5,038 bases of DNA, from NCBI GenBank assembly GCA_025462805.1, contig JAOAPJ010000407.1, forward strand, positions 1 through 5,038, written 5' to 3'. Shown piece by piece: positions 1 through 5,038 of this stretch. Numbering within the stretch: the first letter of the stretch is position 1; every line of letters begins with the position of its first letter. The stretch comes from Acidobacteriaceae bacterium. Lineage in GTDB: Bacteria > Acidobacteriota > Terriglobia > Terriglobales > Acidobacteriaceae. The notes beneath the pieces are model-generated. The model was not told where the DNA came from. It saw only the letters and a program-made list of their open reading frames with translations, and did not search any database. Made by a program: the position numbers and the translations under genes.

Positions 1-756
1 CGGCGCTGCGTCGTCGATGTGCCACCGCTTCCGGTCCCGTAATGTATCCGTCAGCGTCTTCACCGAATCATGGATCACCCGGTCCGTCTCTCCCTTGTTT
101 ACTTCGAAGGGGCGCACCTGGTAGACCAGCTCGTTGATCACATCCCCAAGGTTGAGCGCGTTCAGCATGCCCATGCCAAAGTCCACCGAAAACTTCAGTC
201 CTGGTTCGCCACTCGCCGCTTTGATGCCGTCGGTTTGCTGGAAGAGCAGGACGCGGAAGCCGTCAAATCCCGCGTTCTGCAGCGCGAACCGATATTCCGC
301 CTCGTACATACCGAATCGGCAAGGGCCACAAGAGCCGGCGGTGAAGAAGACGTAGTTGTCGATGATCTGCTGGCGGGTAAGTCCCCCCTGCTCCAGTTTC
401 TGGAGATAGCGCACCAGATTGCCCACAGTGAAGTAGGTGGGATTGCACTGCCCGTTATTGCCGAACTCCTTGCCGGCCTGGAAATCGGCTACCTCCGGCG
501 TGGGAATGTTTTCACAGTGATATCCGCTGCCGTGAAAAACGGCTTTGATCATCTCCTCGTGTTTCCAGGTCAGACCGCCGAAGAGAATCGTCACATAATC
601 GCGTTCGGCTGCAGTGAACGTCCGCTCGACAGGCTTCTTGAACTCGCGCATCCGCGCGAGGCCGGCCGCAGCGCGAAGGCGGGCCCGCTCGGCGTCGATG
701 CGGGCCTGGATCTCCACCTCGAAATCCTTCTGAACAATCTCTTCGATCACTGGCAT
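1..756 (-). CDS. 2-hydroxyacyl-CoA dehydratase/CoA-activase-associated protein (COG3581 type), C-terminus cut by window edge
   Basis: The frame is open from an ATG at 756 to the left edge, giving 252 residues without a stop. It starts with a charged, probably helical segment (about 5-40), followed by a conserved core. Recognisable blocks are YVTILFGGLTWKHE (54-67), EFGNNGQCNPTYFTVGNLV (97-115) and FFTAGSCGPCRFGMYEAEY (137-155), then GFRVLLFQQTDGI (166-178). I recognise these as the family related to benzoyl-CoA reductase/2-hydroxyglutaryl-CoA dehydratase subunits, also found as the C-terminal part of large BadF/BadG-type CoA-enzyme activases. Cys81, Cys104, Cys143 and Cys146 are candidate iron-sulfur ligands; that role is inferred. 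Such proteins are expected to be cytosolic and oxygen-sensitive. No ASKHA/HSP70-type ATPase domain is present in the visible part, so here it stands apart from the activase domain. It is the second gene of an operon behind the radical SAM gene (82-nt gap) and probably shares its sigma-54 promoter. The ATG is chosen because an AAGGAG ribosome site lies 6 nt upstream. The family call is fairly confident; the substrate is unknown. Confidence 0.78.
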   Translation of the reverse strand, partial: MPVIEEIVQKDFEVEIQARIDAERARLRAAAGLARMREFKKPVERTFTAAERDYVTILFGGLTWKHEEMIKAVFHGSGYHCENIPTPEVADFQAGKEFGNNGQCNPTYFTVGNLVRYLQKLEQGGLTRQQIIDNYVFFTAGSCGPCRFGMYEAEYRFALQNAGFDGFRVLLFQQTDGIKAASGEPGLKFSVDFGMGMLNALNLGDVINELVYQVRPFEVNKGETDRVIHDSVKTLTDTLRDRKRWHIDDAAP

Positions 757-838: not shown

Positions 839-2125
839 CTACATCTGTCCCTTCACGCCCTGAAAGCCGTGCGCGAGTTGCTTAAAGAAATACTTGATGA
901 CGCGCTGGTCGTTGTAGCACCAGCCGAGGATGTGGTTCAGCGTGGAGAAGCAATGGGTTTGGCAGGTTTCCTTCTGATGGTCTAGTTGCTTGGTATCGAA
1001 TTTGTGATCACCGACGACGCCCCAGTCATAGCTGGCGGTGTACATCGGGAAGCAGGGTGCCAGAGTTCCGTCCACTCGGATGATCATCGAGTTCTGACCC
1101 GCACGGCAGTTCCATGGGAAGTGATTCCCCTTCATGAAGTCGACCATCTGCCAGAGCCGCGTGTTCGAGTTCACCATCTTGTATCCGGCGTCCTGCTTCT
1201 CTGTCAGCCACTGGATGGTCTCTTCAACTGCCGGCCAGTCGTCCCTGGTGATATAGGTGACGTTGTTATCGGCGTGCCTGAAGTGTTCGTCCTGCTCCAA
1301 CAGCGGTGACTCGTTGATGTGATAGTCGGTGGCGATGCCATGGTCGTGGGCGACCTCCGTCAACTCCCGCACGTCGTCGAGATTGTTACGGCAGATATTG
1401 ATGTTGAGGAAGACGGAGTACCCATAGCCGTACTGCTTACGGACGAGATAGTCGAACTGTTTGCGGATGGGCGCCAAGGCCTTGGGCAAGCCGGGCTTCA
1501 GATCGACTGCGTCGACGGCGATGTTGAAGGTGGAGAGGCCGGCGTCAGCCAACCTGTCAATTACGTCGGTGCGCAACAGGCGTGCGTTGGTCGGCAGGTA
1601 GATCCAGAAGTCCTTCTTGGCGGCGTAGTAGGTGATGCGGTGGATGAAGTCTGGCCGCAGCAGCGGCTCGCCGCCCATATAAGCCAGCACACGACAACCA
1701 GTGGAGTGAAGCCAGTCCACGGAGCGCTTTGCCGTGTCTTCGCTCATTCCTTTGACCTTGTTATCGAATGCCCAGCAATAGTGGCAGTCCAGATTGCATT
1801 TGAATTCTGTGAAGAGATAGGCAATGAGTGGGTGGAAGTCTCCGGCTGTGACGCGGGACCTTATGTAAGGAAAGAGCCAGCCTTGCATCGCGTGGTAGAT
1901 CTGGCCCGGCGCCCAGGTGCGCTTCTGCGGAGGCACCCAGCCCTCGTCCTCATCAACCTCGCCCAACAGGTCGGGACGCTGCGGGAAGGTGGGATTGGGG
2001 AATTTCTGTGGCTCACCTACGGGCTGGAGCCCCCCGGTTGCGGCTGCTGGTTTCGTGAGCAAGTCGTGCAGCGGGACATCGAGCCGGAAGCTCGGCGGCT
2101 GTTCGGTGTGCTGCTCTAGACTCAT
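839..2125 (-). CDS. Radical SAM protein with SPASM/twitch-like C-terminal Cys region
   Basis: This is a 428-residue protein when read from the ATG at 2125. Residues 1-85 are a Pro-rich, acidic leader with no family I recognise. The radical SAM core follows: FKCNLDCHYCW carries Cys110, Cys114 and Cys117 (CxxxCxxC), which bind the [4Fe-4S] cluster that cleaves S-adenosylmethionine, and MGGEPLL at 150-156 is the GGEP motif of the core. The C-terminus has Cys340, an RVDGTLAPC stretch with Cys358, then Cys388, Cys392 and Cys403. This resembles a SPASM or twitch auxiliary-cluster domain but does not follow the canonical spacing. Such domains occur in peptide- and protein-modifying enzymes, yet no precursor peptide is visible nearby. 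No signal peptide or membrane segment is seen. The frame extends to a GTG at 2179, but the predicted sigma-54 transcript would begin only about 10 nt before that codon, so 2125 is preferred. It leads the operon with the COG3581-type gene. Substrate unknown. Confidence 0.88.
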   Translation of the reverse strand: MSLEQHTEQPPSFRLDVPLHDLLTKPAAATGGLQPVGEPQKFPNPTFPQRPDLLGEVDEDEGWVPPQKRTWAPGQIYHAMQGWLFPYIRSRVTAGDFHPLIAYLFTEFKCNLDCHYCWAFDNKVKGMSEDTAKRSVDWLHSTGCRVLAYMGGEPLLRPDFIHRITYYAAKKDFWIYLPTNARLLRTDVIDRLADAGLSTFNIAVDAVDLKPGLPKALAPIRKQFDYLVRKQYGYGYSVFLNINICRNNLDDVRELTEVAHDHGIATDYHINESPLLEQDEHFRHADNNVTYITRDDWPAVEETIQWLTEKQDAGYKMVNSNTRLWQMVDFMKGNHFPWNCRAGQNSMIIRVDGTLAPCFPMYTASYDWGVVGDHKFDTKQLDHQKETCQTHCFSTLNHILGWCYNDQRVIKYFFKQLAHGFQGVKGQM

Positions 2126-2199: not shown

Positions 2200-2216
2200 G
2201 GCAACTGACGGGCCAG
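2200..2216 (-). promoter_or_regulatory. Sigma-54 (-24/-12) promoter of the radical SAM operon
   Basis: The minus strand reads CTGGCCCGTCAGTTGCC. Compared with the sigma-54 consensus YTGGCACGN4TTGCW, only the A in the -24 block and the last base differ. The GG (2214-2213) and GC (2202-2201) doublets are separated by exactly 10 bases. Transcription would start near 2189, giving a leader of about 64 nt to the ATG at 2125. The nearby sigma-54 activator gene and the upstream dyad support the call. It has not been scored by matrix. Confidence 0.78.
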
Positions 2217-2310
2217 AGTTGAAGCAGCAGCAGGCGCGTGGTAAATAGTTGAAAGGAAACAGCGGCTGCCTGAGAGTTGCCTGCAGAACCAATTCCATCG
2301 CACAATCAAA

Positions 2311-2317
2311 ATGCCAA
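2311..2317 (-). promoter_or_regulatory. Possible additional activator half-site
   Basis: The minus strand reads TTGGCAT, a perfect 7-base inverted match to the plus-strand TTGGCAT at 2341-2347. It lies between the dyad and the sigma-54 promoter, about 113 bp upstream of the -12 element. In the other intergenic region a second TGCCA-containing palindrome sits at a similar place. It may be a weaker accessory site. Confidence 0.35.
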
Positions 2318-2330
2318 CAGACTGACTCTC

Positions 2331-2346
2331 TGCCAGCGTATTGGCA
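2331..2346 (-). promoter_or_regulatory. Enhancer-like dyad (UAS) for the radical SAM operon
   Basis: Read in the direction of the operon this is TGCCAATACGCTGGCA, an inverted repeat TGCCA-N6-TGGCA. Its centre lies about 138 bp upstream of the -12 element, within the usual range for binding sites of sigma-54 activators. It matches the dyad at 4609-4624 at 14 of 16 positions, in the same orientation relative to the target promoter. The likely binder is the Fis-type helix-turn-helix of the adjacent activator (inference). It could also act on the activator's own promoter. Confidence 0.62.
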
Positions 2347-2437
2347 TGGAGCCGAGCAAGCAGTTCCGACTGCGTACTGAGCGAGCTGGAACGCTTCTGG
2401 ACATTTTTCATGCCCCCTTGCACATCGAGCCTCATCT

Positions 2438-4582
2438 ATGAGGAACCGGTTACGGAAGGAAGGCGTCTGTCTCGATATGCGGAGATCGCGTCAGCAGGAG
2501 ACACTTGCGACGAGCGGCGGCACACTGCCCGTGGAGCGGGTGCGAGATTTCCGGAACTTTGCGCGCAGCATGGATGCGTTCGCCGATGCCGACGAGTTGT
2601 TGCGCACTCTGCCTGCTGCTTTGGCAACGCTGTTCGCCGCTCATACCGCTGCCGTGATCTGCGTGAAGGAGACCGGCATATCCGGCTTCGCCGCGAATGC
2701 CGGAGGAGGTCCCATAGAGGCTGCCGGCGAACAGGCGCCTTGGTACGAAGAGATCCGCCGCCTCACCATCGAGCGTCCTGAACTGTTCTTGCTGCCAGCA
2801 CTCGAGCACGAGATGCTGCTGCCAGAGACGCTGCTGCCGGATACCGTCCGGTTCTTCCGTGAACTCGGCAACCGGTCCTTATGCCTCCTTCCCTTGAGTA
2901 CCGCGCTGCGGCGGCTCGGCGTCCTGTGTGTGGCTAGCGAGAGCCCGGATGCCTTTTCTGAAGACGAGATCGGGCTTCTTTCCATGGTGTCCGATTATGT
3001 CGCGTTGGCGATAGACGATCGCCTTAACTTCGCGAGATCCGAAGCTGCCAGGCTCCATCTGGAGAGTGAGCGGACAAAGCTCAACCTGATCCTGGACCTG
3101 AACAACAGTGTCGTCTCCAATCTGGACCTTCGCGAGGTTCTACGGTCCGTATCGCCAGGCATCCGGAGGACAATGCGTGTGGATGGCGTAGCCCTGATGC
3201 TGCCTGATGCGGCCGGCACACAACTGCGGCTGCATGTCCTGGACTTCCCCGATGGCAAAGGAGTAGTGGGCGAAGGCGTTTCACGGCCAGTGGACGGGTC
3301 GCTTCCGGGCCAGGTCCTCCGCTCCGGAATGCCGTGGGTCGGCGATTTGGCAGCATTGCACAGGTCCGGCTTCGAGGACCGGATCTCCGCCGCGCGAGGG
3401 ATCCAGGCGGTCTGCATCCTTCCCCTCATGCGATGCCGCCGTGCGCTTGGGGTGCTTTGCCTAATCAGGCTGCGCAAAGCTAGCTTCACACCCGATGACG
3501 TCGAGTTCCTGACGCAGATTGCAGGGCAGGTGGCGATTGCCCTCGACAATGCTTTTGCCTACCAGCAGATCTCTGAGCTCCGGGACAGGCTTACCCAGGA
3601 GAAGCTTTATCTGGAAGATGAGATTCGCAGCGAGATGAACTTCGAGGAGATCATTGGTAATAGCGCGGTGTTGCGACGGGTTCTCGACCAGGTGGAAGCC
3701 GTGGCACCCACCAATTCAACCGTTCTCATCCAGGGGGAGACCGGGAGCGGAAAAGAGCTCATCGCGCGTGCCGTTCACAAGCTGAGTCACCGGAACAGCC
3801 ACCCATTCGTAAAGCTGAACTGCGCGGCTATTCCTACCGGACTGCTGGAGAGTGAGTTGTTCGGGCACGAAAGAGGTGCCTTCACGGGTGCGATCAATCA
3901 ACGAATCGGCCGTTTCGAACTTGCCTCGCAAGGCACCATATTCCTGGATGAGATCAGTGAGATCCCGCTTGATCTGCAGCCCAAGCTATTGCGTGTGCTG
4001 CAGGAACGGGAGTTCGAACGGCTGGGCAGCTCACGCACTCTGCGTACCGATGCTCGCTTGGTTGCAGCTACCAACCGGGATCTGCACGCAATGGTGGCAG
4101 AGCAAAGATTCCGCTCAGATTTGTTCTACAGGCTAAACGTATTCCCCATACATGTCCCTCCCTTACGGGAGCGGAGAGAAGATATCCCGTTCCTGGTTCG
4201 GCATTTCGCCCAGCACTTCGCCCGCAATATGAGCAAGAACATTGAGACGATCTCGTCTGAGACCATGAATGCGCTGATCCGCTATCCCTGGCCAGGAAAC
4301 ATCCGCGAATTGCAGAACTTGATTGAACGGGCGGTCATTCTCTCCAAAGGACCGGTCCTCAACGTCTCATTAGCCGATTTGAAATCCAAGACACAGAACG
4401 GTGCTGCGAATGGCTCGTCGACCCTCGCGGAGGTCGAACGAAGGCACATCTTGTCTGTGCTGGAAGAGACCAACTGGGTATTCGCGGGTCCCAACGGAGC
4501 AGCCGCGCGGCTCGGAGTCAAACGTCCGACGCTCCAGTTCCGCATGCAGAAGCTTGGGATCTCCCGTCCTCGCAAGGCATAA
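2438..4582 (+). CDS. Sigma-54-dependent activator, GAF-GAF-AAA+-Fis (FhlA-like)
   Basis: This 714-residue protein is an enhancer-binding activator of sigma-54 RNA polymerase. Two GAF sensor domains (about 47-192 and 215-372) are followed by a short coiled-coil linker (374-399, [12 protein letters not shown]...). The AAA+ domain spans 402-640. It has Walker A GETGSGKE (433-440), the sigma-54-contacting loop GAFTGA (480-485) and Walker B GTIFLDEI (499-506, Asp504/Glu505). Sensor I ATNRD (544-548), the arginine-finger segment FRSDLFYRL (558-566) and sensor [12 protein letters not shown] (618-627) complete it. The C-terminus (about 663-714) is a Fis-type helix-turn-helix with [20 protein letters not shown]. 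Length, domain order and the AAA+/HTH sequence recall FhlA, which senses formate; the ligand here is not known. There is no receiver domain, so control by a small molecule or partner is more likely than phosphorylation. It lies between two sigma-54-like promoters with matching dyads, its probable targets. The start is uncertain: ATG 2438 lacks a clear ribosome site, while ATG 2477 follows GGAAGGAAGG at a longish 13-nt spacing. Confidence 0.95.
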
Positions 4583-4608
4583 CTCGTCCGTTCGTTCTTG
4601 GACTTCCC

Positions 4609-4624
4609 TGCCAATTCGTTGGCA
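4609..4624 (+). promoter_or_regulatory. Enhancer-like dyad (UAS) for the STAS-like gene
   Basis: The sequence TGCCAATTCGTTGGCA is a perfect TGCCAA/TTGGCA inverted repeat around TTCG. It is the near-twin of the dyad at 2331-2346. Its centre is about 125 bp upstream of the -12 element of the next promoter. As RNA it could fold into a 6-bp stem with a UUCG loop and so mimic a terminator, but no T-run follows. Confidence 0.6.
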
Positions 4625-4637
4625 TTCTGCCAGAATG
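4623..4637. repeat. Palindrome CATTCTG-C-CAGAATG
   Basis: Seven-base arms flank a single central base. It overlaps the end of the 4609-4624 dyad by two bases, so TGCCA, TGGCA and TGCCA occur in succession within 24 bp. This may be a second binding site for the activator or for another dimeric regulator. Confidence 0.5.
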
Positions 4638-4726
4638 TCAGCAGCGCGCAAGACGCTAACGCCGCAGCACTTGCACAGGATGCCTGTCTCTGCTGTATTT
4701 TAGCCGCTTCGCCGAAGACGAGTTTT

Positions 4727-4742
4727 AGGCAGACCGATTGCA
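4727..4742 (+). promoter_or_regulatory. Sigma-54-like (-24/-12) promoter of the STAS-like gene
   Basis: The sequence AGGCAGACCGATTGCA has GG (4728-4729) and GC (4740-4741) exactly 10 bases apart and a perfect TTGCA -12 block. The -24 block matches GGCA but differs from TGGCACG at three places, so it is weaker than the promoter at 2200-2216. Transcription would start near 4753. The upstream dyad supports it. Confidence 0.55.
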
Positions 4743-4911: not shown

Positions 4912-5038
4912 ATGTTGCGAATCACTCTGAGTGAGACAGGGTCGGAACAACGGTGGATACTGGAAGGGCGGCTGACGGGCGGCTCCATTGAGGACTTGGT
5001 GGCAAACTGGCGGGCCAATCGAGACCGTGCACCCACCC
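4912..5038 (+). CDS. N-terminus of a small STAS-like protein, cut by window edge
   Basis: From the ATG at 4912 the frame stays open to the right edge (42 codons plus one base). It reads MLRITLSETGSEQRWILEGR, then LTGGSIEDLVANWRANRDRAPT. The pattern of a short beta strand, a variable turn, a second strand ending in LEGRL-G, then an amphipathic helix with a Trp resembles the start of STAS-domain (anti-sigma-factor antagonist-like) small proteins that I recall from acidobacterial genomes. Only the first strand-strand-helix unit is visible, so the call is tentative. An AGGGGA ribosome site 8 nt upstream supports the start. The gene lies behind a sigma-54-like promoter and a dyad matching the one before the radical SAM operon, so it probably belongs to the regulon of the upstream activator. 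Confidence 0.65.
   Translation, partial: MLRITLSETGSEQRWILEGRLTGGSIEDLVANWRANRDRAPT

Follow-up and report, generated by a model that had tools for sequence, protein, structure and literature searches.

What binds a palindrome that stands in almost the same form on both sides of a regulatory gene, and which genes does it serve? This question is raised by a 5,038-nucleotide stretch of an Acidobacteriaceae genome (contig JAOAPJ010000407.1 of assembly GCA_025462805.1; hereafter the window), in which a gene for an FhlA-like sigma-54 activator lies between two 16-bp dyads (Table 1). An earlier note, made from the sequence alone, had described these dyads as a candidate operator that is directed on both sides towards sigma-54-type promoters, and had named the activator as the natural binder.

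Table 1. Sites and genes of the window, with positions counted from its first nucleotide
Feature	Position	Strand	Remarks
Second gene of the putative left operon	1..756	-	595 aa in L001; extends past the window edge
Radical-SAM gene	839..2125	-	First gene of the putative left target operon; profile match and alignment
Sigma-54-type -24/-12 element, radical-SAM operon	2200..2215	-	TGGCCCGTCAGTTGCC
IHF-like box	2242..2254	-	TTTCAACTATTTA; one mismatch to the IHF consensus WATCAANNNNTTR
Weak (promoter-proximal) dyad, left operator	2312..2327	-	AGTCAGTCTGTTGGCA; 19 bp from the strong dyad
Strong (promoter-distal) dyad, left operator	2331..2346	-	TGCCAATACGCTGGCA; left side kept in 13 of 14 loci with at most two mismatches
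FhlA-like sigma-54 activator gene	2438..4582	+	GAF, GAF, AAA+, HTH_8; recognition helix KRPTLQFRM
Strong (promoter-distal) dyad, right operator	4609..4624	+	TGCCAATTCGTTGGCA; right side kept in 13 of 14 loci with at most two mismatches
Weak (promoter-proximal) dyad, right operator	4628..4643	+	TGCCAGAATGTCAGCA; 19 bp from the strong dyad
Sigma-54-type -24/-12 element, right operon	4727..4742	+	AGGCAGACCGATTGCA
Small STAS-like gene, start only	4912..5038	+	First gene to the right; extends past the window edge

The activator and its neighbouring genes

The AAA+ domain of the activator matches Sigma54_activat (E = 9.3e-72), the GAFTGA loop is present in the translation, and the C-terminal Fis-type helix-turn-helix matches HTH_8 (25.2 bits against a cut-off of 22). 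The layout GAF-GAF-AAA+-HTH_8 is the same as that of FhlA of Escherichia coli and Salmonella, and the FhlA model NF011958 is the best-scoring NCBIfam model (587.2 bits). Assignment as an FhlA equivalog was rejected, because this score lies below the curated cut-off of 830 and the enhancer differs. According to the available text of one study (PMC4987338), FhlA likewise serves several operons as a single activator through a 16-bp palindromic enhancer, CATTTCGTACGAAATG; the operator of the window has the different sequence TGCCAA-N4-TTGGCA, and its neighbours are not formate hydrogenlyase genes.

To the left of the activator, the probable start of the radical-SAM gene is the ATG at 2125, which is conserved in the alignment and is preferred over the GTG at 2179 of the open reading frame list. 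The 595-aa protein encoded by the next gene has nothing over the Pfam cut-off and no match in NCBIfam or PDB. The third gene, which lies beyond the end of the window and was read in L087, encodes a protein of 1237 aa in which BcrAD/BadFG ATPase and DUF2229 domains occur; a relative of this protein is found within reach of the stretch in 13 of the 14 loci that carry the activator beside the radical-SAM gene, with only a partial match in L106. The L087 counterparts of the second and third genes lie at 10363-12150 and 12196-15909. Together, the radical-SAM gene and the genes for the 595-aa protein, which matches no family, and the 1237-aa BcrAD/BadFG-DUF2229 protein form a conserved set. It may constitute an ATP-driven reductase or dehydratase system that has yet to be characterised. 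In known systems, BcrAD/HgdC-type ATPases power oxygen-sensitive, low-potential reductions.

The STAS-like gene to the right is 64% identical to L001 7368-7667 and is present in 13 of the 14 carrier loci, with L095 as the exception; the STAS_2 match of the relatives is under the cut-off. Genes farther to the right differ among the 14 loci, and in L001 the gene that follows has the opposite direction. Two carboxypeptidase-regulatory-domain proteins occur there in only five of the 14 loci (L087, L088, L092, L093 and L098), and were therefore rejected as a constant part of the right operon.

Paired dyads and promoter-like elements in related loci

The sample comprised 40 stretches around relatives that were found through either the activator or the radical-SAM protein. 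The 14 loci in which both genes are adjacent include the window and an Edaphobacter MAG (L001, the first relative to be named), and two of them, L087 and L088, are near-identical. With up to two mismatches, the left dyad is absent only in L106 and the right dyad only in L095; on the right side of L096 it is the proximal dyad that counted as the match, the distal one departing more. In L001, dyads with the same arms flank the activator at a separation of 2278 bp, as in the window, and the activator is 61 and 79% identical to that of the window over two matched segments. The L001 activator (4848-7114) is split across two reading frames near 6548, by either a frameshift or an assembly error.

Across the loci, the core of the dyad is TGCCAA-N4-TTGGCA. 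In 24 strong dyads (12 per side, with L088 left out), positions 1-5, 12, 13 and 15 are invariant, and eleven of the twelve arm positions carry 1.35-2 bits, position 11 carrying 1.13. The positions and strands that the earlier note gave for the two dyads are correct, as are its counts of 14 of 16 and 17 of 20 identical bases. Its conserved centre, AATWCGYT, does not survive the comparison, in which positions 7-10 carry only 0.03-0.59 bits, and the three upstream bases TCC that it added to the match are not conserved in the alignment. Within the window, a search with up to three mismatches finds only these two 16-mers, while shuffled windows yield a mean of 0.12 matches and reach two in 3 of 200 shuffles, a test that is partly circular because the search pattern was derived from the two sites themselves.

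Each strong dyad is accompanied by a weaker copy, which lies 19 bp nearer the promoter in all aligned loci except on the right of L090 (20 bp). On the left side (12 loci), G2, A5 and T12-A16 of this copy are invariant; it is a half-site in which TGGCA is fixed and the other arm is loose. In the 13 carrier genomes, a search for the tandem pattern that allowed at most three mismatches in its 20 letters yields 23 sites and hits every carrier. Of these sites, 22 flank the activator; the remaining one is G371:C1:2845756. None is found in seven genomes that have the radical-SAM orthologue without an adjacent activator, and a reversed control pattern gives two sites in the carriers and one in the non-carriers. 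The right pair of G545 and that of G456 fall short of the threshold. Because nearly all tandem sites lie at the locus, a large regulon was rejected. Single dyads with at most one mismatch occur 187 times in the carriers, where the reversed control occurs 83 times; in the non-carriers, the corresponding counts are 44 and 55. Since only the carriers have about twice the control count, a few further activator sites are possible.

The absence of the dyads from activator-less loci can also be followed locus by locus. Twenty-one radical-SAM loci have at least 84% identity over most of the protein, and 10 of them, as opposed to 11 carriers, lack an adjacent activator match. In nine of these 10 (L094, L097, L100-L105 and L108), no dyad with up to two mismatches lies near the gene; L094 has one dyad 8 kb from it, in L103 a different activator-like match lies at a distance of about 5 kb, and the stretch before the contig end is only 1.4 kb in L097 and 0.8 kb in L104. 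L099 has a weak pair about 100 bp upstream of the radical-SAM gene (2957-2990; two mismatches each, 18 bp apart) and no activator match within the 1.2 kb to the contig end; the pair may be a relic, or an activator may follow beyond the contig end. The 14 more divergent radical-SAM loci (L109-L122), all of which lack an activator next to the gene, contain a single dyad with at most one mismatch, in L119, and it lies more than 2 kb from the gene. In L095, the right dyad and the STAS-like gene are both missing. A further observation concerns L106 (G338:C7), where the radical-SAM gene is apparently broken, the activator match lacks its N-terminal part and the left dyad is lost while the right side is kept; apparently one half of the switch has decayed. 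L266, an orthologue outside the motif definition, has the tandem on both sides and adjoins a radical-SAM fragment with 83% identity.

Promoter-like elements were searched with the sigma-54 consensus TGGCACG-N4-TTGCW, with GG and GC fixed and a score of at least 8 of 12. The corresponding consensus parts are written tGGcacg and tTGCt in the available text of a Desulfovibrio study (PMC4641369). All 13 loci have such an element on the left, with a distance of 127-137 bp to the dyad centre. The right side has one in 12 of 13 loci, at 93-135 bp, and its -24 box is frequently AGG or CGG rather than TGG; L096 yields none at the score used. Both ranges fall inside the 80-200 bp expected between a sigma-54 enhancer and its promoter. 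From their likeness of sequence, these sigma-54-type elements are probably sigma-54 promoters, as the earlier note had supposed. In the window, the -12 G is 136 bp away from the centre of the dyad on the left and 123 bp on the right upon recount, rather than the 138 and 125 bp of that note. Candidates of the same score class also occur elsewhere, at 54 bp on the left of the window and at 35 and 178 bp on the right of L089. At a score of at least 9, the three carriers included in the comparison have an element at -89 to -96 (score 10-11), and four of the ten activator-less radical-SAM genes have elements with a score of 9 at scattered positions; the difference is less marked than the one shown by the dyads, because carrier scores span 8-11. 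A separate scan of the window, which also covered terminators, showed no sigma-70 site.

In 12 of the 13 loci, an IHF-like box with zero to two mismatches occupies a fixed place between the left operator and the promoter; L001 is the exception. No such box is found at the right promoter, where the best matches have two to four mismatches and are scattered (12 loci). Three HU/IHF-type proteins are encoded in each of the 10 genomes searched, a count in which IHF and HU are not separable. The RpoN DNA-binding domain is present in 12 of the 13 carrier genomes and was not found in G532, a contig assembly.

Proposed mechanism and alternative explanations

The FhlA-like activator very probably uses the dyads on either side of its gene as enhancers, or upstream activating sites. 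Each enhancer would consist of two TGCCAA-N4-TTGGCA dyads, a strong promoter-distal one and a weaker one about two helical turns nearer the promoter. The activator would contact them through its HTH_8 domain, while the GAF domains would sense a signal, and its ring would assemble on the paired sites. A DNA loop, aided on the left by an IHF-like protein, would then lead to opening of the RNA polymerase-sigma-54 complex at the -24/-12 element. The predicted targets both point away from the activator: on the left, an operon of the radical-SAM and BcrAD/HgdC-type activase genes, and on the right, the STAS-like gene, followed in some relatives by those for the carboxypeptidase-regulatory-domain proteins.

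This mechanism is preferred because the dyads stand on both sides, keep their arms while the centre varies and have tandem copies at a constant spacing; because the tandem follows the presence of the activator among genomes; because L095 lacks the right dyad together with the STAS-like gene; because sigma-54-like elements and RpoN accompany it in nearly all carriers and L266 has the tandem as well; and because, among paralogues, a change of recognition helix goes with a change in the arms of the operator. Counted against it are the lack of an RpoN match in G532, the states of L106, L099 and L096, the AGG or CGG of the right -24 box, the stray -24/-12 candidates, the right pairs of G545 and G456 under the threshold and the inconstancy of the right-hand genes.

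A regulator other than the activator might instead bind the dyads, either a repressor or some other enhancer-binding protein, and the activator would then lie between them by coincidence. Acidobacterial genomes hold many sigma-54 activators, and a first look at those of the carriers gives numerous candidate activators. This explanation is nevertheless improbable, given that all 13 carriers have the tandem at the locus and that none of the seven genomes with the radical-SAM gene but without an activator beside it has one; the adjoining activator is the most likely binder, as the earlier note had suggested. Moreover, distant homologues with the same type of helix (L030, L031 and L204-L207) have TGCCA arms with at most one mismatch, whereas homologues with a Ser or Asn helix have different arms beside their own genes. 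It is slightly less probable still that the left operator serves mainly in autoregulation of the activator, as its place upstream of the activator, about 107 bp from the start, would permit, since the conserved left -24/-12 element and the IHF-like box face the radical-SAM gene, and no comparable element towards the activator was seen by eye between the dyad and the ATG.

Least probable of all is the explanation of the palindromes as RNA hairpins, such as terminators, or as chance repeats. The right strong dyad does begin 27 bp after the activator stop, and a terminator scan flags 2337-2313 (minus strand), a hairpin that combines an arm of the strong left dyad with one of the weak and precedes ATTTTGATTG. 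However, the scan as a whole is at the level of shuffled sequence (4 against 4.0), and neither strong dyad itself has a T run after it. The same arms on both sides, the variable centre, the 19-bp phasing and the narrow distances to the -24/-12 elements also argue against hairpins, as does the lack of dyads where the activator is missing.

Enhancers of this kind are already known, and this operator appears to be new. Motifs beside -24/-12 promoters have similarly been reconstructed by comparative genomics in Desulfovibrio (PMC4641369) and Clostridiales (PMC6615313), which belong to phyla other than the present one; the letters TGCC are absent from the main text of the former, and the word Acidobacteria is absent from that of a multi-phylum sigma-54 study. 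A literature search, with most subscription journals outside its reach, found no description of the TGCCAA-N4-TTGGCA operator (one match concerned Enterococcus), no operator work on acidobacterial sigma-54 activators (one match concerned ECF sigma factors) and no recognition code for sigma-54 enhancer-binding proteins. An operator, its neighbouring targets and a promoter layout are provided here for an acidobacterial sigma-54 activator. The earlier note had overlooked the second dyad nearer each promoter, the left IHF-like box and a link between operator and recognition helix.

The recognition helix and base 5 of the operator

This link emerges among 178 activators with a readable helix, reduced to 153 at 95% identity, whose flanks were scored for TGCCn-N6-n'GGCA with at most one mismatch in the eight fixed bases. 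The 20 Phe activators (TLQF), which represent 19 loci because L001 and L032 are the same place, have 23 perfect sites, all with A; 19 are called A and one has no call. The 31 Ser activators (TLQS) have 17 perfect sites, all with G, 22 being called G and nine having none. Among the eight Asn activators (TLQN), two perfect sites, both with C, belong to one activator, and the calls are C in four, G in one and none in three; the six Tyr activators give G once, C once and no call four times. One-mismatch calls are partly due to chance, because 21 of 88 activators with other helices also receive one (G 9, A 8, C 3, T 1); a perfect site occurs in only one of these 88 (L293, TLQA, with G).

When all 1024 five-base arms are ranked, with kinship ignored, TGCCA comes first for Phe (Fisher 1.8e-14) and TGCCG for Ser (3.2e-9), while Asn has TGACC in first place (1.7e-6), followed by TGCCC (2.2e-4). 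No arm falls below 1.1e-4 for the NS, RS, EA, HS, QA and QY helices or for smaller helix groups. TGCCA had been the top arm for EA helices in a first, smaller sample (6 of 10 against 2 of 51, mostly mixed sites like TGCCATCCTTTCGGCA), and was dropped when it was not the top arm in the larger one.

In a tree built without the HTH domain (151 of the 153 activators, L001 and L032 being too short), Phe versus Ser is one change, and A versus G is one change. The 39 agreeing activators are therefore not 39 events, since a sign test of Phe/Ser against A/G has one independent pair. The independent events are Ser/Phe, Ser/Asn, one change from Phe to Tyr (L216, with the site TGCCGAACAGTCGGCA, in a set of seven whose other six members have Phe with A) and one His activator (L298) with C, which depends on one weaker site. 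Leu and other Tyr activators in the same part of the tree have no site. The third helix residue was rejected as the cause of the base switch, because Ser at that position occurs with both bases.

In the HTH_8 domain of acidobacterial FhlA-like activators, with helices of the form [KN]R[PST]TLQx[RK], residue x may set base 5 of the TGCCn half-site, with Phe for A, Ser for G and Asn for C, and gene duplication followed by a single residue change and a single matching base-pair change may have split off new dedicated switches; we consider the balance for and against this rule to be about even, few evolutionary events supporting it. Critical residues in helix 3 of LuxO include Tyr426 and Arg427 in the available text of one paper (PMC11407668), and by our reading of residue order these would correspond to the Gln and Phe positions here. 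The rule, which would be new, resembles the LacI-family code in deriving residue-base relations from natural co-variation of regulators and sites, as far as the available text of that study goes (PMC2978694); it differs in its DNA-binding domain, which is the HTH_8 of enhancer-binding proteins, and in the small number of independent events behind it. If it is true, enhancers and target genes would be predictable from protein sequence across the family, and the avoidance of cross-talk among paralogous activators would become directly testable.

The layout of the window recurs in the wider family. Of 59 Phe, Ser and Asn activators, 40 have a downstream site and enough sequence. At 50-190 bp past the first site of these 40, a sigma-54-like element with a score of at least 8 is present on the same strand in 36 and on the opposite strand in eight, a result that answers, for relatives, the check which the earlier note had proposed. 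A second dyad (at most 3 of 10 mismatches, offsets of 14-25) fits best at 18-20 bp in 29 of the 40. In activators with the IS helix (KRTTLIS; L035, L270, L272, L275 and others), the arms TTCGA and GTCGA are enriched beside the genes (Fisher 5.1e-6 and 1.5e-5 in the ranking of 1024 arms), a hint that bases may also be set by the residue which precedes the Phe/Ser position.
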